Program-made: the position numbers and the translations under genes
Part shown: in pieces, positions 2,816 through 38,238 of the stretch
How the letters are laid out: the number at the start of each line of letters is the position of its first letter
Position numbering within the stretch: position 1 is the stretch's first letter
The notes under the pieces: generated by a model
What the model saw: the letters and a program-made list of their open reading frames with translations, nothing else
Told to the model about the DNA's origin: nothing
The model's database searches: none
NCBI GenBank assembly: GCA_031273605.1
Contig: JAISRN010000068.1
Location: forward strand, 1-39,072
DNA from: Spirochaetales bacterium
GTDB taxonomy: Bacteria; Spirochaetota; Spirochaetia; UBA9216
Direction: 5' to 3'
DNA: 39,072 nt

Positions 2816-5605
2816 TTGAAAAAACTAAAGGGCATCCGTACCCGGCTTTTTTCTAGTATCGGCGCCTTAACTCTTTTATTTGTGATTATCCTAATTGTTT
2901 TAGGAATAGCGGTTATGGGGTTTATCGCCGACGGCCTTTTGGTCCGCACCATAGAGCCCCTGACCCGCAGCGCCGCGGTAAGCCTGGAAAATGACATTCA
3001 GGCCATGGCCGCCCGGCTGGAACTGCTGGGGGAGGCCTTCTTTCCCCAGGGCGCCCCGGATTTAGCCCCCGATTCGGCGCTTTTGGAGCAATCCCTGGCC
3101 GGGGGGGGGCTTGTCTGGCTGGGTTTTTACTCTCCCCAGGGGGTCCTTCTTTCCGGCAGCCCCGCAAGCCCGGCAAGCCTTACCGAAACTACCCTTCACC
3201 CCCAGCCGGACCGGAATAGGAAGTTGGTTTTGGGAGACATTCTGCCGGGCCCCTCCGGTCCGGAGCTTACCCTGGGGATTCCCCTGGAGGACCGGGGGAG
3301 GCTTGAGGGCTTCCTAACGGGCTGCTTTGTTTATCAAAATCTTAACCGAATTTTATCGGCCATGGCCCTTTCGTTTCAGGAAAATGTCTTCATCATTGAC
3401 CACGAAGGGCGCTTGAAGATTCCGGAAAACCAAACCCCCCAGGGAAGGGTTCCCCTTCAGCTTGTCCTCACCGAACCGGCGGTCCGGGAGGTTGCCGGCG
3501 CCATGCTTAGGGAGCAGGAGGGCAGCCGCTGGATACGGGTTTCCCAGGGAAGGTTCCTGGCCAGTTACAGCCCCGTCCGAAACGCCCGCTGGTCCTTGGG
3601 GATTCTGGTTCCCCCCCCTAGTTCTTTCCTCCCCCTTCACCGGATGGCTTTTTGGGGCTCCCTGGTATTCCTTGTCTGCCTTATTTTTTTTGCTTTTATT
3701 TCCAATGCTATTTTGACATCCCTCCTGACCCGGCCTTTGGGAACCATTACCGAACAGGCCCGCAGCCTGGCCGAGGGGAACTTTGAACCCATCGAAGCCA
3801 AGGCGCTCACCGCCCGGCATGATGAAATTGGAATTCTAAGCCGGACCTTTAACACCATGTCCGGGGCCATTGAGGAATTGATGGAAAGGGCCAACCAAAT
3901 AACCCAGGCGGCCCGGTCCGGCCGGCTGGAGGAACGCTGCGATCCCCTCACCCTGCCGGGGAGCTACCAAAAGATTGCCGCGGATTTTAACGCAACCCTG
4001 GATCAGGTCTGCCTTCAGTTAGAATCGGTTCCCGACGCCCTGGCCTTTTTTGATCTTAGGGGAACCATGCTGTACCGCAACCGGATTATGGAGGATTTTC
4101 TCATCCGCCATGAGCTGCAATGCCCGGACCCGGAAAGGCTGGCCCGGATTCTCTCCGGAGGGGAAAGGGGCGAGTTTAATTCGGAGATTCTGAATTTTCT
4201 AAGCCCCGAAAAAACCTTTCCCGACACCTACACATCATCGGTGGATCTGCCGGGCTACGACATTATCTCCTACCACCTTCCCCCGGAGGAGGTTCAGGAA
4301 GATTCCGGCTCTCAGGAGAATAATTACCGGAACACCGGGGCAGGCAACTATCTCTTAACCCTTAAAAAAATTTCCGTTGACGGCGGACAGCCCTGCGTCA
4401 TGCTTATTTTAAGCGACGTTACCATGCTTATCCGGTCCAAACTGGATGCGGAATCCGCAAGCCAGGCAAAGAGCGATTTTCTCTCCCGGATGAGTCACGA
4501 AATTCGAACTCCCCTAAACGCCATTATCGGGATGACCCAGATTGCCAAGAGTACGGACCAGGGGGACAAAATCAAGAATTGCCTTGCCCAGATTGAAAAC
4601 TCCTCCAACCACCTGATAGGAATCATTAATGATATTTTAGATTACAATAAAATTGAATCGGGAAAGCTGTCCCTGGACGAGGACTATTTTGACCTGAGGG
4701 CTAACTTGGATTTTGTGGTTTCCATGATGTCCCCCAAGGCCAGGGAACGGGGCATAGATATTCACTTAAGCATTTCCAACCTTACCCACAGCTACATCCA
4801 TTCCGATTCTTTAAGGCTTAACCAGGTGCTGATTAACATTCTCTCCAATGCGGTTAAATTCTCTCCGGAAAAAAGCTCCATAGAACTTAATGCCAGGGAG
4901 ATGGAGTACCAGTCGGGATTTGCCCGGTTTTACTTTGAAATTGTGGACCACGGCATCGGCATCAGCGAAAAAAAAGCGGCCAAGCTGTTCCGCCCCTTTG
5001 AACAGGCGGACGGAAGCATTACCCGGAATTACGGAGGCACCGGTTTGGGCCTGGCGATAAGCAAAAACCTGGTGGAAATGATGGGGGGCAGCCTTAACCT
5101 GCAAAGCAGGGAAAATGAGGGCAGCGCCTTTAGTTTTACCATCGTTTCCCCGGCCCAGATTCCCCCCCGGACCGAGGCTCCCCGCTCTCCGGGGGAAACA
5201 AAGCCGGAGGTTTACGATTTTACCGGAAAACGCTGCCTGGTGGTGGACGACATTGAGATTAACCGGGAGATTATTACGGAACTCCTCTCCGATACGGGAA
5301 TCCTTATTGAGTGCGCCGGCAACGGTCAGGAAGCGGTGGACCTTTTTCGGGACTCCCCCCCCGGCTATTTTGACCTGGTTTTGATGGATATGCAGATGCC
5401 GGTGATGGACGGCTGCACCGCCACCCGGGCCATCCGCTACCTGGGCCGGGAGGATTCCGAAACTATCCCGATTATCGCCATGACCGCCAACGTGATGCAG
5501 GAAGACATCCGAAAGGCCATGGAATCCGGAATGGACGCCCACCTGGGCAAGCCCATTGAACTTGATGCGATGTATAAAGTACTCCAGGAGCACCTTACCT
5601 CTTAA
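2816..5605 (+). CDS. Membrane-bound hybrid sensor histidine kinase (TM - extracytoplasmic sensor - TM - HAMP - HisKA - HATPase - REC)
   Basis: FLSRMSHEIRTPLNAIIGM H-box, GTGLGLAISKNLVEMMGG G-box, REC with LMDMQMPVMDG; hydrophobic segments near residues 12-38 and about 280-300. TTG start. Confidence 0.9.
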   Translation: MKKLKGIRTRLFSSIGALTLLFVIILIVLGIAVMGFIADGLLVRTIEPLTRSAAVSLENDIQAMAARLELLGEAFFPQGAPDLAPDSALLEQSLAGGGLVWLGFYSPQGVLLSGSPASPASLTETTLHPQPDRNRKLVLGDILPGPSGPELTLGIPLEDRGRLEGFLTGCFVYQNLNRILSAMALSFQENVFIIDHEGRLKIPENQTPQGRVPLQLVLTEPAVREVAGAMLREQEGSRWIRVSQGRFLASYSPVRNARWSLGILVPPPSSFLPLHRMAFWGSLVFLVCLIFFAFISNAILTSLLTRPLGTITEQARSLAEGNFEPIEAKALTARHDEIGILSRTFNTMSGAIEELMERANQITQAARSGRLEERCDPLTLPGSYQKIAADFNATLDQVCLQLESVPDALAFFDLRGTMLYRNRIMEDFLIRHELQCPDPERLARILSGGERGEFNSEILNFLSPEKTFPDTYTSSVDLPGYDIISYHLPPEEVQEDSGSQENNYRNTGAGNYLLTLKKISVDGGQPCVMLILSDVTMLIRSKLDAESASQAKSDFLSRMSHEIRTPLNAIIGMTQIAKSTDQGDKIKNCLAQIENSSNHLIGIINDILDYNKIESGKLSLDEDYFDLRANLDFVVSMMSPKARERGIDIHLSISNLTHSYIHSDSLRLNQVLINILSNAVKFSPEKSSIELNAREMEYQSGFARFYFEIVDHGIGISEKKAAKLFRPFEQADGSITRNYGGTGLGLAISKNLVEMMGGSLNLQSRENEGSAFSFTIVSPAQIPPRTEAPRSPGETKPEVYDFTGKRCLVVDDIEINREIITELLSDTGILIECAGNGQEAVDLFRDSPPGYFDLVLMDMQMPVMDGCTATRAIRYLGREDSETIPIIAMTANVMQEDIRKAMESGMDAHLGKPIELDAMYKVLQEHLTS

Positions 5606-10691: not shown

Positions 10692-10976
10692 TTAAAGATC
10701 GTTAAAGCCTTCTTCGATGAGGGACACCAGGTTCTCCACCGCCTCCCTTTCATCGGGCCCCTGGGCGGTAAGTTCCACCGGGGTTCCCTTGTTCAGAATC
10801 ATGGTAACCACATGGACCACCGACTTGGCGGAACCGGATTTTACCGTCTCGCCCCTTTCGTCAAGTTTTTTTACGGTAATTTCCGAAGAAAAGGACTTGG
10901 CGGCCTTAACAAATTCGTTGGCCGTCCTGGCGTGGAGTCCGGTACGATTAATGATGGTAGTTTTTTTTGCGTACAT
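10692..10976 (-). CDS. ptsH: Phosphocarrier protein HPr
   Basis: NRTGLHARTA active-site His; SGSAKSVVHVVTM; 94 aa. Confidence 0.95.
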   Translation of the reverse strand: MYAKKTTIINRTGLHARTANEFVKAAKSFSSEITVKKLDERGETVKSGSAKSVVHVVTMILNKGTPVELTAQGPDEREAVENLVSLIEEGFNDL

Positions 10977-12727
10977 CAGCTATGCACCCCTTGGTCTTCT
11001 GGATTTCTTCGCTTTTTTTCTTCTTCCTGCAAATAGGATTCCACCTCGGCGGCGGTGGCCAGGCTCAGGACCCGGTTTGCGATCCCCTCCGCATCCTTTA
11101 AGTCAAGCCGGGTAACCATGCGTTTAATCCCCGCCACCGATGAGGCGGACATGGAGAGTTTCCTTATTCCCAAACCCAGAAACACCATGGCCGCCCGGGG
11201 GTCCCCCCCCATTTCGCCGCAGACGGAAAGGGGTTTTCCGGCCTTGAGAAAAGCCTGGGAAGCGACATAGATCAGCCTAAACATGGCCGGATGAAAACTT
11301 TGATAATATTCGTTGAGTTCCGGATTCTGCCTGTCCACGGCCAGGAGGTACTGGCAAAGATCGTTGGTTCCGATGCTGGCAAAATCGACTTCCTCCACAA
11401 TCAGGTCCGCAATAAGGGCAATGGCGGGAATCTCGATCATAATGCCCACTTTAATGTCCGGGTTATACTCCAGCCCCTGTTCGTCCAGCTCTTCCCGGCA
11501 CTCCCGGATAATGGCCTTGGCCCGGCGCAGATCCTCCAGGCTGCCCACCATGGGAAGCATGATAGCCAGGTTGCCCCACACCGAAGCCCGGAGAGCCGCC
11601 CTAAGCTGGGTTTTAAAAAGGTCCTGCCTGGTAAAGCAGAGCCGCAAAGCCCGCACCCCCAAAAAGGGATTATCCTCCCGGGGCAGTTCCAGGCAGGGCA
11701 GAGTTTTATCCCCCCCTATATCCAGGGTTCGCAGGATAACCTGGCGGCTTCCAAAAACCTCCGCCGCCTTTTTGTAGGCCCGGAACTGCCGCTCCTCGCT
11801 GGGCAGGTCCTGGCCGGCCATAAACAGGAATTCCGAGCGGAAGAGGCCCACCCCGTCTGTCCAGGCTGCGCCTTCCAGCTCATCGTCATTGGTGGAGCCG
11901 ATGTTCAGGCAAACCTCAACGGTTTTTCCATCCCGGGTAACCCCCTTAACTCCCCGGAATTTTTCGGTTTCCGCCGCCTCCTGCAAAAAGGCCCGGCGGC
12001 GGGCCTCGTATTCCTCGATCTGCCCTTTGGCGGGGCCGATGATGAGGCGGCCCTCCAGGGCGTCCAGAATCACCTGGTCATTGTCCCGGATGGCGTCCAT
12101 CACATTACTGATTCCCAGGAGGGCCGGAATGCCGTAGCTCCGGGCAATGATGGCGGAATGGCAGGTTAGCCCCCCCACCTCGGTTACCAGCCCCAGGACC
12201 TTTGTCCGGTCCATGACGGCCGTATTGGAAGGGAAAAGCTCATGGGCAAAAACCACCGAGGGCTCCTTGATCTCCGAAAGGTTCCGGTGTTCCACCCCCA
12301 GCCAAAGCCGCAAAATGCGGTTTTTTACGTCCCTAAAGTCCGCCGCCCTTTCCATGAGGTACTGATCGTCCGCGGCGCTGACCATATCAATAAATTTTTC
12401 ATAAACCGTTTCCACGGCGTAATCCGGGGCAAAGTTTTGTCCGGTAATCAGGGTAAGAATATCCTTCCCCAGTTCCTCGTCATTGAGAATCTCCAGGTGG
12501 GCCTCGAAAATGGCGGCCTTCTCATTCTCGCCGGACTCCCCCAGCCCTTTAATGATGAGGGAAAGTTCTCCGGCGGCCTTATCCAGCACCTCCCGGTAGT
12601 GTTCAAGATTCCGGGGCAGTTCCTCTTTGGTAAGGAACCTTTCGGTAATCACCGGACGGAAGGGGATAAAAACAAAGGCTTTGCCCAGGGCGATTCCCGG
12701 GGAAACCGGGGGAGCTTGAAAGATCAT
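10976..12727 (-). CDS. ptsI: PTS enzyme I (phosphoenolpyruvate-protein phosphotransferase)
   Basis: VGGLTCHSAIIARSYGIPAL active-site His motif, GVGLFRSEFLFM, DFASIGTNDLCQY, SVCGEMGGDP. Confidence 0.97.
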   Translation of the reverse strand: MIFQAPPVSPGIALGKAFVFIPFRPVITERFLTKEELPRNLEHYREVLDKAAGELSLIIKGLGESGENEKAAIFEAHLEILNDEELGKDILTLITGQNFAPDYAVETVYEKFIDMVSAADDQYLMERAADFRDVKNRILRLWLGVEHRNLSEIKEPSVVFAHELFPSNTAVMDRTKVLGLVTEVGGLTCHSAIIARSYGIPALLGISNVMDAIRDNDQVILDALEGRLIIGPAKGQIEEYEARRRAFLQEAAETEKFRGVKGVTRDGKTVEVCLNIGSTNDDELEGAAWTDGVGLFRSEFLFMAGQDLPSEERQFRAYKKAAEVFGSRQVILRTLDIGGDKTLPCLELPREDNPFLGVRALRLCFTRQDLFKTQLRAALRASVWGNLAIMLPMVGSLEDLRRAKAIIRECREELDEQGLEYNPDIKVGIMIEIPAIALIADLIVEEVDFASIGTNDLCQYLLAVDRQNPELNEYYQSFHPAMFRLIYVASQAFLKAGKPLSVCGEMGGDPRAAMVFLGLGIRKLSMSASSVAGIKRMVTRLDLKDAEGIANRVLSLATAAEVESYLQEEEKKRRNPEDQGVHS

Positions 12728-12733
12728 CCGCTT

Positions 12734-14035
12734 TTACGCCCCTACAAAGAGGGCGTCCTGAAGTTTCCTGAGCTGAACCATGAGGCTTGACTCATCCAAT
12801 TCCACATCCCCATAGGTAACCAACTCTCCCTTTTTCACCGGCCTGAGCATCCTGGTCTTTTTATTCACCAGGCCCAGGGGCAGCACATTTTTTTCTTTGG
12901 CTTCGGCCGCGGAAATAAAGGTTCCCCGGAGGGTGAATCCTCCTATGCCGTCCAGGGTGTCTCCGGGGTTTAGGTCAATCTTAGCCACCGTACCCGTTTC
13001 GGCCACCAGGCCCATCCGGGGCACTATGGTGGGGATGTTATCAATAACCGCCTTGGCCGCGGAAAGGGGGGTTTCCAGGCTGCAAAGGTGGTAGGGCCGG
13101 TAGAGAACAAAATTGGGCCCCTCCCCCATGGAAAGGTAGTTAAGTTCGTGGAGAATATCCGGCTGGGTGGTGGAGATAATCACAAATACGCCGGGGGCCA
13201 CTCCGTTGATATATTCAATAACCTGATAGCTGTTTAAAATTCCCCCTTCGCTTTTCAGGCTTAAGAGCTTGGGCAGATCCTTAACCTGTCCGGAGGCGCC
13301 GTGGGCCCCCATAATATCGGGAAGAAAACCCGTGGCATTGGCCATGGCGGTCATTTCCACCATAGTTTTGGTTCCGTCCTTAAAAGAACAGAGCATTTTA
13401 GGGCTCATGTTCTTGCGCCCGGCCTCGGCGGCAACGGAATCCGGGGTACAGTCGTAATCAATGGCGTTATTCTTGCCCTTTCCCACAACCCGGACATCAA
13501 AGCCTAAGGCCTTGGCAAAATCGTAGATTTCGAGCACCGCCCCCGGTTCGTCCCCCGCGGAGCCGGTGTAAACAACCCCCGCGTTAGAAGCCAGCTTGTA
13601 GAGAATGTGTCCTATGCACACATCGGTTTCGACGTTAAGCATAACGATATGTTTTTGATTATTAATGGCGTCAATGGCTACCTTGGCCCCCACCTCCGGC
13701 ACCCCGGTGGCGTCGATGGCGCAGTCAATACTTTCGCATTTAGTGGCCAGTTCGTTGTTGGTGGTAACCACAAACACGCCCTGTTCAAGCAGCCTGTCCG
13801 CCTCTTCGACGGTGGAAGCCTCGGCAAAATCCTTACCCAGGGACAGGCCCGCCCGGAGAAAGGCATTAATGGCGTTTTCAATCTTGACATCCACCACCAC
13901 GGAGGGGCGCATGCCTTTCATGGAGAGCATCTGGCCTACCATGCCTCTCCCCATCTGTCCGGCGCCGACAATCCCGGCATAGATGGGCATGTCGTTTTTT
14001 TCTAATTCTTCAAGTTTATAATTCAATCCAAGCAT
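12734..14035 (-). CDS. COG4091-type oxidoreductase with C-terminal SAF domain (homoserine-dehydrogenase-like; same superfamily as DXR-like DRL)
   Basis: GIVGAGQMGRGMVGQM Rossmann motif; GVPEVGAKVAIDAI; C-terminal KTRMLRPVKKGELVTYGDVELDESS is SAF-like. Confidence 0.8.
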   Translation of the reverse strand: MLGLNYKLEELEKNDMPIYAGIVGAGQMGRGMVGQMLSMKGMRPSVVVDVKIENAINAFLRAGLSLGKDFAEASTVEEADRLLEQGVFVVTTNNELATKCESIDCAIDATGVPEVGAKVAIDAINNQKHIVMLNVETDVCIGHILYKLASNAGVVYTGSAGDEPGAVLEIYDFAKALGFDVRVVGKGKNNAIDYDCTPDSVAAEAGRKNMSPKMLCSFKDGTKTMVEMTAMANATGFLPDIMGAHGASGQVKDLPKLLSLKSEGGILNSYQVIEYINGVAPGVFVIISTTQPDILHELNYLSMGEGPNFVLYRPYHLCSLETPLSAAKAVIDNIPTIVPRMGLVAETGTVAKIDLNPGDTLDGIGGFTLRGTFISAAEAKEKNVLPLGLVNKKTRMLRPVKKGELVTYGDVELDESSLMVQLRKLQDALFVGA

Positions 14036-14104
14036 GATACACCTCGTTTAAGAAACAAAATTTCCCCGGGGCCTTAAAAAACCCGGAGCCAAAAGCGGGG
14101 CCGG

Positions 14105-14138
14105 CGGCAGTTCCGCAAGCAGGAAAGAGGAACTGCCG
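14105..14138. repeat. Hairpin related to family 1 (CGGCAGTTCC-N14-GGAACTGCCG)
   Basis: Perfect 10-bp arms 14105-14114 / 14129-14138 sharing the GCAGTTCC/GGAACTGC core. Confidence 0.7.
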
Positions 14139-14186
14139 GCATAAAACTCTTAGAAACGCCCCTGTCAAATCATAAACAAAAATCCC

Positions 14187-14546
14187 TCACTTAAAAAAAA
14201 TCTCAAAAGGGTCCCCCGGCTTAACCTCGGGCATACCGTTTCCCTTTAGTTCAATGTGTCCGCCAATCTCCGGCTTATTTTTCCCGGTAAACTTAAAGGT
14301 ACAGTGCCCCATATTGCGCAGGGTATGATTGGCTTCTTCCCCCACGGCGGTAACCAGGTAGGTCTGATTTCCCAGGACGACCTTATCCCCCGGCTTCACC
14401 TCCCGGTCCAGGGGAACTATGGTGTGCAAAATTGACATTTCCGCCAATTCGGGAGGGGCATTGTCGTTAAAAACAATGAGAATCCCCTCCTCGGCAAAAT
14501 CAGACACCAGCTCGCCGATGGCGGTTATCTTGGATAGATAATCCAT
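14187..14546 (-). CDS. srlB: PTS glucitol/sorbitol-type EIIA
   Basis: 119 aa; ITAIGELVSDFAEEGILIVFNDNAPPELAEMSILH...YLVTAVGEEANHTLRNMGH. Confidence 0.93.
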   Translation of the reverse strand: MDYLSKITAIGELVSDFAEEGILIVFNDNAPPELAEMSILHTIVPLDREVKPGDKVVLGNQTYLVTAVGEEANHTLRNMGHCTFKFTGKNKPEIGGHIELKGNGMPEVKPGDPFEIFFK

Positions 14547-14569
14547 ACCGGTTTTAAGCTCAACAGCCC

Positions 14570-15541
14570 CTAGTAGGGCAGAAGGAAACTGGCCAGCCAG
14601 GCAATGACCACCGCCAGCGGGCCGGTAATCATCCGGGAAAAAAGCACCGCCGGAACGCCCACATTGATGGTCTCCGGTTCCGCCTCTCCCAAGGCCAGGC
14701 CCACAGGGACAAAATCCCCTCCTACCTGGGCGTCAATGGCAAAAAGCGCCGGAAGGGCCATGGCGGGTTTAATGTTCCCCGCGCCAATCTGCTCACCCAC
14801 CAGAACGCCGACAATCTGGGCAATAACCGCCCCGGGACCGATGATGGGGGAAATCACGGGAATTGCGCAGATAAACGATAGGATGATCATGCCGATCAGA
14901 TTGCCCGCCAGTGGGGAGATGCCCTTGGCAATGATGTTCCCCAGGCCGGTTCCGTTGATGATACCGATGATCACCGAAACAAAGGCCATGAAAGGCAGGA
15001 TGTGCCGGATAACCATGTCGATGGTATCCCGTCCGGCCTGAAAGAATTTGCCAACCACCCCTCCGACGGCCTTGCCGATTCGGATCAGGATGCTCTGCTT
15101 TCCGCTTGAACCGTCTTCTTTCACTTTGGTGTCCTCTTTTTCCGTGATTCCCGGGGCAGTGACAGGTTCGCTGCCGTCGGCATAACTCAGGTTTTCCGGT
15201 TTTACCCCGGAAACATAAATGTCTTCGGTAATGTACTTGGCCAGGGGTCCCGAAGGCCCGGTCTGCATGAGGTTTACCGTGGGGATTCGCTTTTTGGGAT
15301 AAACGCCGCACCGGGCGGTTCCGCCGCAGTCGATGATAACCACGGCAATTTTGTCCTCCGGAATGCCCGTGGAAAAACCGTCCCCCGCAGTGCCGCCGGT
15401 CATTTCGGCAATTTTTTTGGTGAGCCCGTCAATGCCGCCCCCGGTAACGGAGACGATCATGTTTTTTTCGTCCGTGGGCTGAATAACCAGGGGACCGCCC
15501 CAGCCGCCCCGCCCGGCGCTTATTTTAATGGCTTTATACAT
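14570..15541 (-). CDS. srlE: PTS glucitol/sorbitol-type EIIB(C)
   Basis: N-terminal KISAGRGGWGGPLVIQP...VVIIDCGGTARCGVYPKKRIPTVN, then a membrane domain ISPIIGPGAVIAQIVGVLVGEQIG. Confidence 0.95.
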   Translation of the reverse strand: MYKAIKISAGRGGWGGPLVIQPTDEKNMIVSVTGGGIDGLTKKIAEMTGGTAGDGFSTGIPEDKIAVVIIDCGGTARCGVYPKKRIPTVNLMQTGPSGPLAKYITEDIYVSGVKPENLSYADGSEPVTAPGITEKEDTKVKEDGSSGKQSILIRIGKAVGGVVGKFFQAGRDTIDMVIRHILPFMAFVSVIIGIINGTGLGNIIAKGISPLAGNLIGMIILSFICAIPVISPIIGPGAVIAQIVGVLVGEQIGAGNIKPAMALPALFAIDAQVGGDFVPVGLALGEAEPETINVGVPAVLFSRMITGPLAVVIAWLASFLLPY

Positions 15542-28870: not shown

Positions 28871-29893
28871 ATGAAGAACCGTTCTAATGTAGGCGCGGCT
28901 GCTTTGGCCGTCCTGGCGGTATGCCTAGCGGCATGGACCCTAACGGGCTGCGCGAAGAATTCGGACAAGCCCAGAATCGGCGTCGCTATCTACAAGTTTG
29001 ACGATACCTTTATGTCAACGGTACGCAACGCCATTTCCAAAGCGGGGGAGGAGAATGCGACGGTCGAAATTGTCGATAGTCAAAACGCCCAGCCGACGCA
29101 GAATGACCAGATTGACAACTTTATATCGAGGAGCGTCAAGGCGCTGGCGATTAATCCTGTTGACCGCACAGCGGCTGCGGTGATTATCCAGAAAGCAAAG
29201 GCGGCTGACGTTCCGGTAGTGTTCTTTAACCGCGAACCCCTTGCTTCCGATATGCAGGCATGGGATAAGATCTACTATGTCGGGGCAAGGGCCGAGGAAT
29301 CGGGTACCTACCAGGGACAGATTGCGGTGGACTACTTCAGGGGGAATCCCGGCGCCGACAAAAATGGCGACGGCGTTATCCAGTACATCATGATTATGGG
29401 CGAACCCGGCCATCAGGACGCGGAACTCCGCACCGAGTATTCGGTAAAAGCCATTACCGACGCCGGGCTTAGGGTTGAGCAGCTTGCCAGAGATACCGCC
29501 ATGTGGGACAGAGTGCGGGGGCAGGAAAAAATGTCGGCCTTCCTTGCGGCGCACGGCGAGAGAATTGAGCTTGTGCTTTGCAACAATGACGATATGGCCC
29601 TCGGCGCTATCGAAGCCTTAAAAGCCGAAGGCTACAACACAGGGGGCGCGAAATACATCCCCGTTATCGGTGTTGACGCTACCGCCCCTGCCCTGGAAGC
29701 CATTGAAAACGGCACCCTTTTGGGAACAGTCCTCAACGACGGCCAAAATCAGGGGCAGGCTGCCTATGACATCGCGTTCGCCGTAGCAACAGGGGCAAAT
29801 CCTTCCTCCACAGGCTGGACTCTTGACGGCGGCAAATATGTGTGGGTTCCCTACCAGATGGTTACCAGAGCGAATTACCTGCAATTTAAGTAG
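28871..29893 (+). CDS. mglB: Galactose/glucose-type periplasmic binding lipoprotein
   Basis: Lipobox LTGCAKN; PRIGVAIYKFDDTFMSTVRNAI, ALAINPVDRTAA, PVVFFNREP, LCNNDDMALGAIEAL, IPVIGVDAT. Confidence 0.93.
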   Translation: MKNRSNVGAAALAVLAVCLAAWTLTGCAKNSDKPRIGVAIYKFDDTFMSTVRNAISKAGEENATVEIVDSQNAQPTQNDQIDNFISRSVKALAINPVDRTAAAVIIQKAKAADVPVVFFNREPLASDMQAWDKIYYVGARAEESGTYQGQIAVDYFRGNPGADKNGDGVIQYIMIMGEPGHQDAELRTEYSVKAITDAGLRVEQLARDTAMWDRVRGQEKMSAFLAAHGERIELVLCNNDDMALGAIEALKAEGYNTGGAKYIPVIGVDATAPALEAIENGTLLGTVLNDGQNQGQAAYDIAFAVATGANPSSTGWTLDGGKYVWVPYQMVTRANYLQFK

Positions 29894-29914
29894 GGAGAAA
29901 AACAGATAAAGAAA

Positions 29915-30001
29915 AACCACTAACCACACGAAGGCTGCGAAGGGAAGGGTAAAGGATATTTTTTGCTCCGAACTTTCCCGTAGTTCGTGAGGTTGGTGGT
30001 T
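29915..30001. repeat. Inverted repeat in mglB-mglA gap (AACCACTAACCACACGAA ... TTCGTGAGGTTGGTGGTT), family 2-like
   Basis: 18-bp arms 29915-29932 and 29984-30001, 16/18 complementary. Confidence 0.75.
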
Positions 30002-30024
30002 AAATTCCAAAAACGGAGGATGCT

Positions 30025-31575
30025 GTGGAACCCAGTGAATATGTCCTTGAAATGGAGAATATCACAAAAAGTTTTCCGGGGGTTAAGGCGCTGGATGGCG
30101 TTATCCTGAGGGTACGCGCCGGTACCGTTCACGCCCTTGTGGGGGAAAACGGCGCCGGAAAATCAACCTTAATGAAATGCCTCTTTGGCATGTATGACAG
30201 GGACGATGGAACTATCAAGATGAACGGCGAAGAAGTGTCGTTTACCGATGCAAAAGACGCGCTAAAACGGGGAATCGCGATGATCCATCAGGAATTATCG
30301 CCGGTGAAAGACCAAACCGTCATGGAAAACATGTGGCTGGGGCGTTACCCTGAAAAGAAAATATTGGGAATTCCGTTTATTAACAATAAGGCAATGTATA
30401 ACGACACGATAGAAGCGTTCCGGGGTTTGGGGCTTGATATAAACCCGAAAGTAAAGGTGCGCTATTTGTCTGTTTCAAAAATACAGATGCTTGAAATAGC
30501 TAAAGCCTGTTCAATGAACGCAAAAATAATCATTATGGATGAGCCCTCATCCTCGCTTACCCAAAATGAGGTTGATCAGCTCTTTTCGATTATCAAGGAA
30601 CTGCGCAAAAAGGGCGTGGCTATCATCTACATATCCCACAAGATGGATGAGATACTAAAAATATCCAACGAAGTTACTATTATGCGGGACGGTAAATACA
30701 TAGGAACCTGGGAGTCAAACAAACTTACCACGGATTTTATCATCTCAAAAATGGTAGGGCGTGATTTGTCAAACCGGTTTCCCCCGCGTCACAATACCCC
30801 CGCCGAAAATCTTCTTGAAGTAGGCGGTTTGTGTTCAGCGGAACGGAACTCCTTTAACAATGTATCGTTTAACCTGCGGAAGGGCGAAATACTCGGCATT
30901 AGCGGCCTTGTGGGGGCTAAACGAAGCGAACTGGTTGAGTCGATTTTCGGCTTGCGTCCCCTTAAATCCGGCCAAATAAAAATTGATGGCAAAAAGGTCA
31001 GAATAAAAAATTCTATCGACGCAATCGATGCAAAAATGGCTCTTTTAACCGAAGAACGCCGTGTCACCGGTATTTTTCCCATGCTTTCAATTGCCGATAA
31101 CACGCTTATCACAAATTGGAAAAAGTATTTATCAAAAGCCGGTTTGATACGCTCCAAACAGGGCATCGCTGATGTTGATGAAAGTATTAAGCAGCTTCGT
31201 GTAAAAACGCCCTCCTGCCTGACCCGGATAAGAAATTTGTCGGGCGGCAATCAGCAAAAAGTTCTTTTTGGCCGCTGGCTTTTAACGGAGCCGGAAATTT
31301 TACTCCTTGACGAACCGACCCGCGGAATAGACGTGGGAACAAAGTATGAAATTTATTCAATCATTGCCGATCTTGCCGCGAAGGGCAAAAGCATCATCAT
31401 GATTTCTTCGGAAATGTCTGAGCTGTTGGGCATGTCGGACAGGATCATGGTAATGTGCAACGGCAGGGCAACAGGGATTCTTGATGGCAAAACCGCGACA
31501 CAGGAGGCGATAATGACCCTGGCGACACAGTTTGAACAAACAAAGGAAAATGAAAAGGAGGCTATCCTGGCATGA
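30025..31575 (+). CDS. mglA: Galactose/methyl galactoside ABC transporter ATP-binding protein
   Basis: Two ABC domains: GENGAGKSTLMKCLFG Walker A; IIMDEPSSSLT; second LSGGNQQKVLFGRWL and LLLDEPTRGIDVGTK. Confidence 0.95.
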   Translation: MEPSEYVLEMENITKSFPGVKALDGVILRVRAGTVHALVGENGAGKSTLMKCLFGMYDRDDGTIKMNGEEVSFTDAKDALKRGIAMIHQELSPVKDQTVMENMWLGRYPEKKILGIPFINNKAMYNDTIEAFRGLGLDINPKVKVRYLSVSKIQMLEIAKACSMNAKIIIMDEPSSSLTQNEVDQLFSIIKELRKKGVAIIYISHKMDEILKISNEVTIMRDGKYIGTWESNKLTTDFIISKMVGRDLSNRFPPRHNTPAENLLEVGGLCSAERNSFNNVSFNLRKGEILGISGLVGAKRSELVESIFGLRPLKSGQIKIDGKKVRIKNSIDAIDAKMALLTEERRVTGIFPMLSIADNTLITNWKKYLSKAGLIRSKQGIADVDESIKQLRVKTPSCLTRIRNLSGGNQQKVLFGRWLLTEPEILLLDEPTRGIDVGTKYEIYSIIADLAAKGKSIIMISSEMSELLGMSDRIMVMCNGRATGILDGKTATQEAIMTLATQFEQTKENEKEAILA

Positions 31576-32606
31576 AAACGGAATTAGAGCAAAAACTGAC
31601 TTCGGGCAAGATCAAAGATTTCTGTATTAATAATGCAATCGTTCTGGTGCTTATATCGCTTATTATTTTTATCGCCATCAGAGAACCGAGCTTTCTTTCG
31701 TTACGGAATCTGCGGAATATCCTTACGATGTCCGCGACACGGCTTATCATCGCCCTCGGCGTCGCGGGGATTCTTATCACCGGCGGCACCGACCTTTCGG
31801 CGGGACGCAGCGTCGGGCTTGCGGCTGTTTTATCGTCATCCCTTTTGCAGTCCCAGGACTATCCGCGCCGTATGTATGAAAACCTGCCCTCTCTTCCCCT
31901 CATTATTCCGGTTTTAATTGCCATAACCGTCTGCGGAATGGTCGGTTTGGCAAACGGCATCATTGTCTCAAAATTAAAAGTACCGCCATTTATCGCCACC
32001 CTCGGCTCAATGGTTGCCGTTTACGGCATAACCTCAATTTATTTTGACAGGCCGCCCTACGGCGCCCAGCCTATCGGCGGCTTAAACTCAAGTTTCAGCG
32101 CCCTGGGCACAGGTTTTATAGGTCCCAACGGCCTCTTTTCGCTGCCCTATATTGTATTGATTGCCGCCTTTATCGCTGTTTTAATGTGGGTGGTGTACAA
32201 CAAAACAAGGTTAGGCAAGAATGTTTACGCGATAGGGGGCAACAGCGAAGCGGCCCGTGTGTCGGGGGTGAATGTCGTCAAAACTTTGATTACCGTTTAT
32301 ATAATCGGCAGCGCCCTTTATGGCCTGGGCGGAACCCTTGAAGCGGCCCGGACAGGGGGGGCTACAAACAACTACGGCAACGGTTACGAGCTTGACGCTA
32401 TTGCCGCCTGTGTTGTCGGCGGCGTTTCGGTTTCGGGGGGTGTCGGCACTGTGGGCGGTGTTGTTGTCGGCGTCTTGATATTCAGCGTTATCAATTACGG
32501 GTTGACCTTTATCAACGTAAATCCGTACTGGCAGCAGATAATCAAGGGCCTTATTATCGTGGCGGCTGTCGCTATAGACATCAGAAAATACCTTGCCCGG
32601 CGCTAA
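31572..32606 (+). CDS. mglC: Galactose/methyl galactoside ABC transporter permease
   Basis: GVAGILITGGTDLSAGRSVGLAAV, PPFIATLGSM, YAIGGNSEAARVSGVNV; multi-TM; ATGA overlap with mglA. Confidence 0.95.
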   Translation: MKTELEQKLTSGKIKDFCINNAIVLVLISLIIFIAIREPSFLSLRNLRNILTMSATRLIIALGVAGILITGGTDLSAGRSVGLAAVLSSSLLQSQDYPRRMYENLPSLPLIIPVLIAITVCGMVGLANGIIVSKLKVPPFIATLGSMVAVYGITSIYFDRPPYGAQPIGGLNSSFSALGTGFIGPNGLFSLPYIVLIAAFIAVLMWVVYNKTRLGKNVYAIGGNSEAARVSGVNVVKTLITVYIIGSALYGLGGTLEAARTGGATNNYGNGYELDAIAACVVGGVSVSGGVGTVGGVVVGVLIFSVINYGLTFINVNPYWQQIIKGLIIVAAVAIDIRKYLARR

Positions 32607-32617
32607 CAGTTTGCATT

Positions 32618-33601
32618 ATGAATATTCTAATCATAGGCGGGGCGGGATATATAGGAAGTCACGTTGCCAGGGAATTTTTGGACCGAAAACATTCGGTAAC
32701 GGTCTTCGATAATCTTTCAAGCGGTTTAAGGGAGAATATTTTCGAGGGTGAAGAACATTTTGTCCTGGGGGATATTCTCAACTACAATCAATTGTTGTCC
32801 GCCATGAAAGGCGGTTTTGACGGGCTGGTACACCTTGCGGCATTTAAGGCTGCCGGGGAATCCATGATCGCACCGGAAAAATACTCCCTGAATAACATCA
32901 GCGGGACAATCAACATATTAAACGGCGCGCTTGAAACGGGTATCAAGTATGTGGTTTTTTCTTCCAGCGCCGCGGTGTACGGTGAACCCCAGTATCTGCC
33001 TATTGACGAAAAGCATCCGGCGGACCCTGAAAACTACTATGGTTTTACCAAACTGGAAATAGAGCGGATTATGCTGTGGTATGACAAGCTTAAAGGGCTT
33101 CGTTACGCCAGCCTTCGTTACTTTAACGCCGCGGGTTATGACCTCATGGGCAGGATAAGCGGCCTTGAACAAAATCCCTCCAATCTGCTGCCGGTGGTAA
33201 TGGAAACGGCAATCGGAAAGCGGAAGGAAGTGCAAATTTTCGGCAACGATTATGACACCCCAGACGGCACTTGCATCAGGGATTATATTCACGTAAGCGA
33301 TCTTGCGGCGGGCCACGTCGCGGCTCTTGAATATATCGCGGCGGCGGATAAGAGCCTTACGGTAAACCTTGGAAGCGAAGAAGGGGTTTCCGTACTGGAA
33401 ATGATCGAAACCGCCCGGCACATAACGGGGGTGGATATTCCGGCGCGTATTACCGGACGGAGGGCCGGAGATCCCGCCCGGCTCACAGCCTCCGCGCAAG
33501 CAGCAAAAAAAGTCCTTGGGTGGCAGCAGAAATATTCCGGTGTCCAAACACTGCTTGCCTCAACCTGGGAGGCATACAAGAGGAACAGGCGATCTGTATG
33601 A
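32618..33601 (+). CDS. galE: UDP-glucose 4-epimerase
   Basis: IIGGAGYIGSHVAREF, VFDNLSSG, SSSAAVYGEP, YYGFTKLEIE, LRYFNAAG, CIRDYIHVSDLA. Confidence 0.95.
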   Translation: MNILIIGGAGYIGSHVAREFLDRKHSVTVFDNLSSGLRENIFEGEEHFVLGDILNYNQLLSAMKGGFDGLVHLAAFKAAGESMIAPEKYSLNNISGTINILNGALETGIKYVVFSSSAAVYGEPQYLPIDEKHPADPENYYGFTKLEIERIMLWYDKLKGLRYASLRYFNAAGYDLMGRISGLEQNPSNLLPVVMETAIGKRKEVQIFGNDYDTPDGTCIRDYIHVSDLAAGHVAALEYIAAADKSLTVNLGSEEGVSVLEMIETARHITGVDIPARITGRRAGDPARLTASAQAAKKVLGWQQKYSGVQTLLASTWEAYKRNRRSV

Positions 33602-35001
33602 ATGGGCAAGACCTGATTGCTAAAATAAACAGCCCTTCTGCGGTATCTGTTTTTAATAAGTTGTACGGCGGTAATGGAATCCTATGCTCATCCGATCCCC
33701 AAAAAGGCGAAGTTTTTTCCCTTGAAAATGTCCGTTTGCGGTATACCGCTTTGGTTAATGGTTTGATTGAAATACTTAAAGAGTATCCTGATTCTATTGA
33801 AGGCGCCTCAGAGGATGTCCGTTTATTTACTGCGGCAGGGCGGACGGAATTGGGAGGCAACCATACGGATCATAACAACGGAAAAGTATTAGCCGCTTCC
33901 ATCCAGCTTGACGCGGTTGCCGCAGTCGTTATGCGGAATGATAAAAAAGCGCTGCTGCGCTCAACCGGGTTTCCCGATGTAAAACTGGATATAACGGATC
34001 TTGCTCCAAAAAAAGAAGAAACGGGAACCACCGAATCTTTGGTGAGGGGAATAGCCGCCGAGTTTGCCGCCCGGGGCATAAGGGCAAAGGGCTTCATTGC
34101 AAACGCCGATTCAACAGTATTGAAAGGTTCCGGCCTGTCCTCATCCGCCGCGATAGAAGTGCTTCTGGGCACAATCTTTAATTGCCTTTACTCAGGCAGG
34201 CAATTTAACGAACTGCAAATTGCCCAATTCGGCCAAAAAGCTGAAAATAATTATTTTGGCAAACCATCGGGGCTTATGGATCAGGCGGCCTCCGCGTCCG
34301 GCGGGGTAATTGCCCTTGACTTTGCGGTAAAGGACAATCCGAAAGTAGAAAAGATTGACTTTGATCCTGCCCCATTTGGTTACGCCCTGTGTGTTGTGGA
34401 TACCAGGGGAAGCCACGCAGACCTTACTCCCGATTACGCGGCTATCCCCAATGAGATGCAGGGAATAGCCCGCTTTTTCGGCAAAGGGACGCTGCGTGAA
34501 ATAAATATCGGGGACATTTATTCAAATATGGAAACCATCAGGCAAAAAGCGGGGGACCGCGCCGTGCTGCGCTGCCTGCACTATTTTAATGAAAACCGGC
34601 GGGTCCAAACCATGACAGAGGTTCTTAAAAAACTGCCCGGGGAAGTCGGCTCATCAAAATCCGGCGCGTTATTTAATACCTTTCTCGGCCTGGTAAATGA
34701 ATCCGGGAATTCTTCCTGGGAGTTGCTGCAAAATGTTTTTTCACCCCGGAATCCCGCCGTACAAAGCCTAGCCCTTGCGCTGGCTCTGAGCAGGGAATTT
34801 TTTAAAACGATGAACAAAGTAGACGATGCCCCGCCCGGCGTATGCCGGGTACATGGAGGCGGTTTTGCCGGTACCATTCAGGTGTATATCAGGCAGGAAT
34901 ATCTGGAAAAATACAAATCATGGATGGAACAATTTTTTGGCGAAAAGCCGGTAACTGTTTTACGCATACGGCATACCGGCACGACGGAAATTATATTGTA
35001 G
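33598..35001 (+). CDS. galK: Galactokinase
   Basis: GRTELGGNHTDHNNGKVLAASI, VLKGSGLSSSAAIEVLLG, GLMDQAASASGG, VHGGGFAGTIQVY; start overlaps galE stop (ATGA). Confidence 0.93.
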   Translation: MNGQDLIAKINSPSAVSVFNKLYGGNGILCSSDPQKGEVFSLENVRLRYTALVNGLIEILKEYPDSIEGASEDVRLFTAAGRTELGGNHTDHNNGKVLAASIQLDAVAAVVMRNDKKALLRSTGFPDVKLDITDLAPKKEETGTTESLVRGIAAEFAARGIRAKGFIANADSTVLKGSGLSSSAAIEVLLGTIFNCLYSGRQFNELQIAQFGQKAENNYFGKPSGLMDQAASASGGVIALDFAVKDNPKVEKIDFDPAPFGYALCVVDTRGSHADLTPDYAAIPNEMQGIARFFGKGTLREINIGDIYSNMETIRQKAGDRAVLRCLHYFNENRRVQTMTEVLKKLPGEVGSSKSGALFNTFLGLVNESGNSSWELLQNVFSPRNPAVQSLALALALSREFFKTMNKVDDAPPGVCRVHGGGFAGTIQVYIRQEYLEKYKSWMEQFFGEKPVTVLRIRHTGTTEIIL

Positions 35002-35065: not shown

Positions 35066-35114
35066 TGTCAATTTAAGTCAAAAAATTGACAAAAACCCGG
35101 ATTTTATGTAATAT
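35066..35114 (+). promoter_or_regulatory. Promoter TTGACA-17-TAATAT with inverted repeat TGTCAATTT-N8-AAATTGACA over the -35
   Basis: TGTCAATTT 35066-35074 and AAATTGACA 35083-35091 are exact inverse complements; -35 at 35086-35091, -10 at 35109-35114. Confidence 0.6.
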
Positions 35115-35184
35115 TATAGTATAGCCCTATGGCTTGTTATTTTGAATTGACTCCCGGCAACGGACCTGTCTTGCGAGGATCGCC

Positions 35185-36999
35185 ATGGAACTGCTTCACC
35201 CCTCTCCCGCCTTCCCCCTGATCAACCTGGAAAAACCAAAACTCTTTAGGGAGCAATTCCCCTACGACCAGGTGCCCCGGATTCTCTTTGAGGGGGTGGA
35301 TGTTCCTCTGGACCCCGCGGAGGAATTCTTCATTACCGACACCACCTTTCGGGACGGCCAGCAGGCCAGGGCGCCCTACACCCCCAAGCAAATTCTCAAG
35401 ATTTACGAACTCCTGTCCAAACTGGGGGGGGAAAGGGGACTCATCCGCCAGGCGGAATTCTTTCTCTACTCCGACCGGGACCGGCAGGCGGTGGAACTCT
35501 GCCTGGCCCAGGGGCGGCGCTACCCTGAGATTACCAGTTGGATCAGGGCCAACAAGACGGATTTTGCCCTGGTAAAGCAATTCGGCCTCAAGGAAACGGG
35601 AATTCTCACCTCGGTTTCCGATTATCACATCTACCTGAAATTAAAAACCGACCGGAAAAAGATCATCGGAGATTACCTGGGCATCGTTCAGGGGGCGCTG
35701 AACGAGGGGATCATCCCCCGGTGCCACTTTGAGGACCTCACCCGGGCGGACATCTACGGCTTTGTCCTGCCCTTTGCGGAGCAGCTTCTGAAACTTTCCC
35801 AAAGCTATAGCCTGCCGGTGAAGATCCGCCTCTGCGATACCATGGGTTACGGCCTCACCTACCCCGGCGCCGCCCTTCCCCGGAGCATCCCCCGGCTGAT
35901 CCACGCCTTCCGCCGGGAACTGGGCTACCCTTCGGCCTGGCTGGAATGGCACGGCCACAACGACTTTCATAAAGTCCACATTAATGCCTCCTCCGCGTGG
36001 CTTTACGGGGTCAGCAGCCTCAACGCCTCCCTCCTGGGCTACGGGGAAAGGACGGGAAACCCCCCCCTGGAGGCGGCGGTGATTGAGTACCTGGGCCTAA
36101 CCGGGGATAGGGGGATCGACACCCGGGTTATCTCCGAGATTGCGGACTACTATCGCCAGGAGGTTATGGCGAATATCCCGGACAACTACCCCTTTGTGGG
36201 GGAGGATTTCAACACCACCCGGGCGGGGGTCCACGCGGACGGCCTTTTGAAGAATCCCGAAATATACACCATCTTTGATACGGAAAAGCTCCTCAACCGG
36301 CCGATCCGGGTCATGGTAACGGACAAATCCGGCTATGCGGGGATCGCCCGGTGGCTTAACGAAAACATCCCCCTGATCCGGGAAGGGAAGCGGGAGGAGA
36401 TATCCAAGCGCCATCCGGGGGTAAGTTACATCTACGACTGGGTAAACCTTCAGTACGAGCGGGGGCGAATCTCCTGCATCTCCGGGGATGAACTTATCAC
36501 CCAGGCCAAGCGTTACATCCCCTCCCTCTTTGAATCCGACTTTGACCGGGTTAGGGAGGCGGCCTCCCGGATCGCCACCCGGCTTTCCGCCCGGATAAGC
36601 CAGGCGGAGGCCCTAAAGGGCGATCTGGACAGGGAAAATGTGGAAAAATACCTGGAAAAGATCCTTAAAAAAGAAGCCTCGATTCAACTTATCGCCATCA
36701 CCAACACCGACGGCTACCGGATCGGCCAGGTTCACACCCAGCACGGAGAAAAGGCCCTGTTCCGCAACCTTCTTAACAAGAATTTCAACAAGCACGAATG
36801 GTTTTCCCAGGTTATTGCCACCGGCGAACCCTACGTTTCCGATCTTTTCTTTTCCAAATACACCAAACGGCTGATCCTAACCCTGGCCCACCCCCTTAGG
36901 GATCAGAACAATCAGATCCGGGGGGTAATTGACATTGATTTTGCCTTTGAAACCCTGGCAAAACTGATAAGCCACCTTCCCGAAGAAATTACCGAATGA
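35185..36999 (+). CDS. DRE-TIM metallolyase (Re-citrate / isopropylmalate / homocitrate synthase-like) with C-terminal Cache/PDC-like domain
   Basis: ITDTTFRDGQQARAPYTPKQI, RCHFEDLTRADIYGFV, LEWHGHNDFHKVHINA, GERTGNPPLEA, NTTRAGVHADGLLKNPEIY; C-terminal ITNTDGYRIGQVH...WFSQVIATGEPYVSDLFFSKYTKRLILTLAHPLRDQNNQIRGVIDIDF. Confidence 0.85.
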   Translation: MELLHPSPAFPLINLEKPKLFREQFPYDQVPRILFEGVDVPLDPAEEFFITDTTFRDGQQARAPYTPKQILKIYELLSKLGGERGLIRQAEFFLYSDRDRQAVELCLAQGRRYPEITSWIRANKTDFALVKQFGLKETGILTSVSDYHIYLKLKTDRKKIIGDYLGIVQGALNEGIIPRCHFEDLTRADIYGFVLPFAEQLLKLSQSYSLPVKIRLCDTMGYGLTYPGAALPRSIPRLIHAFRRELGYPSAWLEWHGHNDFHKVHINASSAWLYGVSSLNASLLGYGERTGNPPLEAAVIEYLGLTGDRGIDTRVISEIADYYRQEVMANIPDNYPFVGEDFNTTRAGVHADGLLKNPEIYTIFDTEKLLNRPIRVMVTDKSGYAGIARWLNENIPLIREGKREEISKRHPGVSYIYDWVNLQYERGRISCISGDELITQAKRYIPSLFESDFDRVREAASRIATRLSARISQAEALKGDLDRENVEKYLEKILKKEASIQLIAITNTDGYRIGQVHTQHGEKALFRNLLNKNFNKHEWFSQVIATGEPYVSDLFFSKYTKRLILTLAHPLRDQNNQIRGVIDIDFAFETLAKLISHLPEEITE

Positions 37000-37067: not shown

Positions 37068-37520
37068 TTGAAATTCTCCAAGCTGATGAAGGAGAGAATC
37101 CGCCGGGTTAAGGTCCTTTTTGCGGAACTTGGTTACGAAGTCTACGAAGACAGCCTCCAGGATGACTCTTACTCCGCCGCTTTTGAACGGGACGGGGAGT
37201 TTGCCGGGGGTTTTATGATCAATGGGGAAAGCAAATTCCTGGAGATTGCCTTTGCCTTTTCTTTTTCCACATCCTTGAGTCATTTTTTGCAATCCCAATT
37301 GGAAAAAATGATTGAAATGTGCTATACTTTTGGTTGTTATCTCAGCGTTCAAAAAGAGGAAGACCTGTCTTTTTCCGTGTTTTCTAAGATTTACTTTGCC
37401 GGCCTTAACTACTATGCCCTCAAGGAAACCCTCAGGGATTTTCATAGCTGCATCGAGGCTCTTAAGGAAATCATAGACCTGAACCAGCGTGCGGGAGGAA
37501 ACAATAATGGAAACCACTAA
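37068..37520 (+). CDS. Conserved hypothetical protein (possibly YbjN/CesT-like fold)
   Basis: 150 aa ORF with TTG start and purine-rich upstream GAGGGG; overlaps next gene by 14 nt; fold suggestion is weak. Confidence 0.6.
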   Translation: MKFSKLMKERIRRVKVLFAELGYEVYEDSLQDDSYSAAFERDGEFAGGFMINGESKFLEIAFAFSFSTSLSHFLQSQLEKMIEMCYTFGCYLSVQKEEDLSFSVFSKIYFAGLNYYALKETLRDFHSCIEALKEIIDLNQRAGGNNNGNH

Positions 37521-38238
37521 ACAGGAGTTCATCAATCAGATGGAAAAACTGGTTTTAGATACGGTGGATGATTTTGCCGACAGCCTTGAGGCCCACAACA
37601 GCCCTATCTGTACCTGCCCCCAGTGCCGCCTGGATGTTACCTGTTACGTCTTAAACAACATTCCTCCCCAGTACATCATCTCCAGCCGGGGGATGGCCCA
37701 CCTTCAGGCGGATTATCAGCTCAAGATTCAAAAAACCGCCGATGTGATTCAGATGACCAAGCAGGGTTTTGAAATTGTCTCCCGGGTTAAGCGTCCGGGA
37801 TTTGTCCACAAGGGGGAGGCCGCGGGGGAAATTATCGAAGAAAAGCCCTGCTTCAACTTTCCCCTGATCACGGGGCAGTTGTTGAATGGCCAGAATTTCG
37901 CCCCCCTCAACGAAAAGCAGGAGGTAAGCCTCCTTATTGACGGCTGGCCGGCGGAAATGTGCAACTCCAACTGGCCCAACCCCTACATCCTGGTTCCCAC
38001 CCTGCCGGGCAACTTTATGTTTCTCCCCAAGCCCTTCTTTACCGCCCAGCCGGGGGAAACCCGGACCTTCTCCCTAACCCTGCAATTAAAGGCGGAGGGT
38101 TACCATAACCTTTCCCACAATTTTACCCTGGACCTGGTTTCCGACAGCCGGGTTCTGAGCGCCCTCAAAACCAATAAAAAATACACGGTGCAGGAACTCT
38201 ACGCTTTTAAAACCGATTTTGTCGAAGAAAACCTGTAA
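37507..38238 (+). CDS. ComFB-domain protein with long C-terminal extension
   Basis: CTCPQCRLDVTCYVLNNIPPQYIISSRGMAHL is ComFB-like; about 150 aa follow that are not part of that domain. Confidence 0.75.
   Translation: METTKQEFINQMEKLVLDTVDDFADSLEAHNSPICTCPQCRLDVTCYVLNNIPPQYIISSRGMAHLQADYQLKIQKTADVIQMTKQGFEIVSRVKRPGFVHKGEAAGEIIEEKPCFNFPLITGQLLNGQNFAPLNEKQEVSLLIDGWPAEMCNSNWPNPYILVPTLPGNFMFLPKPFFTAQPGETRTFSLTLQLKAEGYHNLSHNFTLDLVSDSRVLSALKTNKKYTVQELYAFKTDFVEENL

Follow-up and report, generated by a model that had tools for sequence, protein, structure and literature searches.

A predicted Re-citrate synthase carrying a C-terminal Cache/PDC domain in a Spirochaetales genome

Cache domains are commonly regarded as parts of extracytoplasmic receptors, and the locus described here raises the question of what such a domain would be doing at the end of an enzyme of central metabolism. 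The window, by which we mean the whole stretch of 39,072 nucleotides of Spirochaetales contig JAISRN010000068.1 that was analysed, contains at 35185-36999 (+) a single open frame, from ATG to stop, that encodes the 604-residue protein P0001. An earlier note, made from the sequence alone, had described this protein as a DRE-TIM enzyme of the Re-citrate or isopropylmalate synthase kind fused to a cytosolic Cache/PDC-like domain, and the motifs that it named, DTTFRDGQQAR, HGHNDFHKV, GERTGN and AGVHADG, are present in the translation. The features of the gene are as follows.

35185..36999, + strand: whole open reading frame, 604 residues, predicted Re-citrate synthase with a C-terminal Cache/PDC domain
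35332..36147, + strand: HMGL-like DRE-TIM barrel, residues 50-321 (Pfam PF00682, invariant residues, Foldseek matches to homocitrate, isopropylmalate and citramalate synthases, HCS, IPMS and CMS)
within 35332..36147, + strand: barrel motifs DTTFRDGQQAR, RCHFEDLTR (R179), HGHND (H256, H258) and GERTGN
36148..36531, + strand: post-barrel subdomains, residues 322-449 (weak PF22617 match at 339-387)
36538..36600, + strand: long N-terminal helix of the Cache domain, residues 452-472 (AlphaFold2 models)
36631..36969, + strand: Cache/PDC sensor fold, residues 483-595 (PF22673, tail profile against the PDB, Foldseek)
36793..36804, + strand: predicted pocket motif H537-E-W539-F540, R-x-W-F in the family consensus (alignment)
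36937..36939, + strand: invariant D585, aligned with PctA D173 (alignment)
35086..35115, + strand: candidate sigma-70-like promoter upstream of the gene, TTGACA-18-AATATT (consensus match only)

An artefact of assembly or reading frame is ruled out, as the fusion is one open frame here and recurs in independent genomes of many phyla. Directly upstream, at 28871-35001 (+), lie genes for a sugar ABC transporter (binding protein, ATPase and permease), for an NAD-dependent epimerase and for a protein resembling galactokinases. The kinase frame, as called from a GTG, overlaps that of the epimerase, and its real start therefore probably lies further downstream. An unknown 150-residue protein and then a ComFB-domain protein are encoded downstream (37068-38238, +). 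Elsewhere in the window, a PTS enzyme I adjoins a DRL_cat oxidoreductase and a sorbitol-type PTS EIIBC (10976-15541, -), likely a sugar-alcohol uptake cluster.

Pfam, a profile search of the PDB, AlphaFold and Foldseek agree on the fusion of a DRE-TIM enzyme with a Cache/PDC tail. Pfam placed HMGL-like at residues 50-321 (E 1e-25), MCP-like_PDC_1 (PF22673) at residues 488-592 with 34 bits, above its cut-off of 27, and dCache_1 at residues 449-599 with an E of 3e-10 and 40.5 bits, under its cut-off of 45. Both Cache models were matched by 58 of 58 homologous tails, each scanned singly, and PF10388 (YkuI_C) was additionally matched by 19 of them. A profile of these 58 tails matched Tlp3, KinD, PctA, PctC, PctB and the cytosolic YkuI in the PDB, with best values of 2e-11 for 4xmq and 3e-10 for KinD. 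AlphaFold2 gave a pLDDT of 89 for the whole protein and 91 for the tail alone (pTM of 0.85), with a long helix at 452-472, a second helix at 483-496 and the PDC sheet. When the modelled tail was submitted alone to Foldseek, KinD was the top match (E 2.5e-8, TM 0.68 over the query), followed by WalK, Tlp3, PctA-C and YkuI. The tail thus displays the long N-terminal helix, the PAS-like sheet and the profile match that define the Cache superfamily, and it is confirmed as a Cache/PDC domain of residues about 450-595. Structure prediction, which the earlier note had proposed as a check, returned a PDC fold; the fold that it assigned therefore stands, whereas the start that it gave, residue 470, does not, the domain beginning at about 450 with the long Cache helix. 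That the tail was recently copied from a chemoreceptor encoded elsewhere in this genome was considered and is unsupported, the sole other match in the genome being a weak MCP match. The window also holds an ordinary extracytoplasmic Cache domain, in a hybrid histidine kinase at 2816-5605 (+) with a dCache_1 sensor, HAMP, HisKA, HATPase and receiver domains.

No transmembrane helix or signal segment is evident in P0001, the highest 19-residue hydropathy being 0.99 by this crude measure, and because hydropathy gives no sign of a transmembrane segment the Cache domain, its PDC fold now confirmed, is very probably cytosolic, as had been claimed. Cache domains usually lie outside the cytoplasm beside a transmembrane helix and act on an output signalling domain; here the output is a metabolic enzyme. 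According to Upadhyay et al., every Cache domain found was in a protein that has an output signalling domain, and Diacid_rec and YkuI_C alone are mainly intracellular (PMC4822843). YkuI_C is an intracellular Cache-like domain as is the P0001 tail (Foldseek 9e-6), but it is attached to an EAL domain, a signalling output, and not to a metabolic enzyme. Such a distribution would favour a tail that signals to partner proteins, as in chemoreceptors and kinases, instead of to the synthase itself. We consider this very improbable, since P0001 has no HAMP, kinase, GGDEF or MCP part and signalling genes were absent from the neighbour clusters of tail-bearing synthases that were examined.

The core of the protein (residues about 50-450) is most likely a Re-citrate synthase (EC 2.3.3.3), an unusual citrate-forming enzyme of anaerobic bacteria, of the type known from Clostridium kluyveri and Syntrophus, an assignment that we infer strongly. 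It contains the D-x-R-D-G, HxH and GERxGN signatures of the DRE-TIM metallolyases, and as no NCBIfam synthase model came near its cut-off, P0001 is left unnamed by that collection. Against homocitrate synthase (NifV/LysS) it scored 125 bits, the cut-off being 463, and a Trp replaces the active-site His; it has no LeuA_dimer match and lies far under all the NCBIfam cut-offs for 2-isopropylmalate synthase and CimA. No close solved structure was found for P0001, the nearest being Leptospira citramalate synthase, and the best Foldseek match of the whole model was Sulfolobus homocitrate synthase 6ktq, with other HCS, IPMS and CMS structures also matched. The invariant R179 is aligned with an Arg of the Sulfolobus enzyme (SaHCS), not of IPMS or CMS, and W119 stands at the position of the homocitrate synthase His; these two positions are presumably those that hold the far carboxylate of the oxo-acid.

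The gene content of the genome points in the same direction. No family match for Si-citrate synthase was found in the window's genome, which is 86% complete, whereas 13 of 14 control genomes were positive. The genome does encode CimA (citramalate synthase), LeuB, LeuC, aconitase and an NADP-isocitrate dehydrogenase, together with the C-terminal part only of LeuA, at a contig end. With the other condensing enzymes accounted for, Si-citrate synthase undetected and aconitase and isocitrate dehydrogenase (IDH) present, P0001 would be the natural citrate-forming enzyme. Among relatives, the gene of the tail-bearing synthase is followed by aconitase-type and IDH genes (16 loci each), and at four loci neighbours were named by NCBIfam: the Elusimicrobia locus L058 has the order synthase, malate dehydrogenase, aconitase, isocitrate dehydrogenase; L037 and L063 have a hydratase and IDH with the synthase; and L064 has aconitase but a thiolase in place of IDH. 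Within a single phylum, that of the Desulfocarbo locus L017, 80 genomes were compared: a strong Si-citrate synthase match was present in 5 of the 40 that have the enzyme and in 28 of the 40 that lack it (Fisher p of 2e-7, kinship ignored), and the two enzymes largely exclude each other there. The Re-citrate synthase reading of the earlier note is thus supported by the gene set of its own genome, by TCA operons in relatives and by exclusion of Si-citrate synthase in one phylum.

The operon context and the exclusion of Si-citrate synthase are likenesses to the Re-citrate synthases of C. kluyveri and S. aciditrophicus, which by inference have the same DRE-TIM core; Syntrophales relatives show about 50% identity. 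The C. difficile/HM1_2993 type is a separate group, with about 28% identity to enzymes of the C. kluyveri/S. aciditrophicus type (PMC12016533). Tail-bearing homologues from Syntrophales have masses of 70-71 kDa and tail-less enzymes 51 kDa. The S. aciditrophicus enzyme has a reported subunit mass of 72.9 kDa, tag included, and should therefore carry the tail, whereas the C. kluyveri enzyme is not known to do so.

P0001 itself belongs to a clade of ten sequences, a supported group in the core tree, in which no conserved or shared neighbour genes were found. Six of the ten genomes also encode Si-citrate synthase, so that the role of the enzyme may differ in this clade, and role and ligand are less certain here than for the operon-linked relatives. 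Both observations would fit a shift of P0001 and its clade to another condensation, for instance one with a homocitrate or methylcitrate-like product. Such a shift appears improbable, since all the catalytic residues listed above are the same as in the operon-linked relatives, W119 replaces the His of homocitrate synthase, and the window's genome combines aconitase and IDH with no detectable Si-citrate synthase.

The survey of domain architectures that the earlier note had called for shows a tail near-universal in some phyla and absent from many homologues. In the window's phylum (with records named Spirochaetota) the enzyme was found in 37 of 247 genomes, with the tail on 16 of 38 copies and absent from 22; two genomes (G003 and G039) encode one tail-bearing and one tail-less copy and are natural material for comparing the two forms of the synthase. 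The phylum of L017 has the enzyme in 143 of 297 genomes and the tail on 137 of 141 judgeable copies (about 97%), whereas all 21 copies in the Bacillota sample (the Paenibacillus phylum) are without it. Two Bacillota frames of more than 1100 residues, considered as further fusions, are tail-less synthases (487 and 462 residues) followed by aconitase genes, and the plasmid copies are only distant, tail-less relatives from Deinococcus. Tail-bearing loci occur in at least ten phyla, the records being from Fibrobacterota, Spirochaetota, Lentisphaerota, Omnitrophota, Myxococcota, Thermodesulfobacteriota, Nitrospirota, Armatimonadota, Elusimicrobiota, Auribacterota and Margulisiibacteriota; the sample from genome contigs leans to tail-bearing copies because it consists of the closest matches only. 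On a quick tree of the core the tail state must change five to six times, and well-supported branches force at least two of these changes; many branches are open, and gain of the tail is indistinguishable from loss. The tail is therefore neither a one-off nor universal but widespread and optional, and the pairing of enzyme and Cache domain is old. Nor does it seem to be a described part of the family: none of the openly available papers searched reported a Cache domain attached to a citrate, homocitrate or isopropylmalate synthase. Domain databases probably already show the architecture, and an enzyme that has been purified probably has it, but it has apparently gone unremarked.

The position of the tail suggests a function. 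The sister enzymes have a regulatory domain after these same subdomains: LeuA and CimA have LeuA_dimer there, and Sulfolobus homocitrate synthase has RAM. The P0001 tail starts where these domains start, and tail-less homologues stop near residue 450, about the end of the post-barrel subdomains; by position, the proposal that it takes the place of a LeuA-type domain is borne out. LeuA and CimA have the barrel, the subdomains and the location of the regulatory domain in common with P0001 but differ in the LeuA_dimer fold, its Leu/Ile feedback ligand, the lack of a Cache domain and the lack of R179. Sulfolobus homocitrate synthase (6ktq) shares the Arg of R-x-x-x-ED and also ends in a ligand domain, but this is RAM and not Cache, and it has a His where the P0001 family has W119.

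Based on the fusion, fold, conservation and distribution, all observed computationally, and by analogy with these LeuA_dimer and RAM enzymes, we propose that P0001 is a cytosolic Re-citrate synthase whose single C-terminal Cache domain binds a carboxylate or amino acid of the pathway and thereby alters synthase activity, a reading that we think rather probable. The core would condense acetyl-CoA and oxaloacetate to citrate; the Cache domain would bind a small pathway ligand, with pyruvate, 2-oxoglutarate, glutamate and citrate as candidates; and the bound state would be passed through the post-barrel subdomains to change activity. Locus L124, where a synthase-aconitase-IDH operon has a tail-less synthase, shows the tail to be optional within the same operon, as expected of an add-on control module. 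The S. aciditrophicus enzyme is reported to be active as purified, and the ligand would then not be strictly required. A wider proposal is that the Cache superfamily, described only in signalling receptors, also provides an intracellular, ligand-operated allosteric switch for an enzyme of central metabolism; it would govern how carbon enters the TCA cycle in many anaerobes, and its pocket would have been retuned in the window's clade. The odds of this seem to us evenly balanced.

Alignment to sensors of known structure indicates what the tail might bind. In PctA the carboxylate of the ligand is bonded by R126, and D173 is likewise a key residue for the ligand (PMC10104139). H537-E-W539-F540 is aligned with PctA R126, W128 and Y129, and position 537 also with KinD R131, the residue changed in the R131A structures. 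This position is Arg in 76 of 79 tails outside the window's clade and His in P0001; W539, F540, Tyr/Phe555 and D585 are kept in the tails by alignment to PctA. The KinD sensor (4jgo, and 4jgp with pyruvate) is the best fold match and its R131 aligns with the consensus Arg of the tails, but it is an extracytoplasmic part of a kinase, has no Asp matching D585, and P0001 has His at the Arg position. The tail is not a dCache_1AA amino-acid sensor by motif (PctA Y121, R126, W128, Y129, D146, D173): the Trp, the aromatic residue and D173 are kept and R126 is kept in the family (His in P0001), but D146 corresponds to an invariant Ser557 and Y121 is not kept. As a best guess, the pocket-matching Arg, Trp, Phe and Asp shared with PctA and KinD point to a carboxylate or an amino acid, and metabolites around citrate and glutamate would be the first candidates.

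The six positions that match PctA pocket positions have an entropy of 0.30 versus 1.79 in the rest of the tail, although the conserved Trp, Phe and Asp are partly fold residues common to Cache domains. This bears on whether the tail is a structural or oligomerisation module that has lost ligand binding. Cache and PAS folds often dimerise, the tail is absent or lost in many homologues that keep the same core residues and operon, and the pocket Arg is altered in the window's clade, all of which would suit such a module. A purely structural domain is not expected to keep pocket-matching positions as its most conserved ones when the mean tail identity is 43%, and we regard this alternative as unlikely. 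Under the ligand-binding reading, the substitutions found in the window's clade make a retuned pocket probable there: Ala or Thr for Tyr at 504, His, Lys or Arg at 537, Ala for Ser at 568 and Asp for Gly at 583.

The literature searched says little about how Re-citrate synthase is controlled. If the proposal is true, Cache would be the third regulatory fold, unrelated to the other two, at this position in DRE-TIM synthases, and Desulfovibrio and Syntrophus would offer a ready test of the signals by which anaerobes adjust their synthesis of citrate and glutamate. Among loci L011-L082, the tail-bearing synthase has aspS upstream in 33 loci and hisS upstream in 21, both identified by sequence appearance; the records concerned are mostly deltaproteobacterial. 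At the Desulfovibrio-type loci L054, L057, L062, L063 and L068, a hydratase of 780-830 residues follows IDH; the one tested, from L063, is far above the cut-off of PRK11413 and not of a standard aconitase model.
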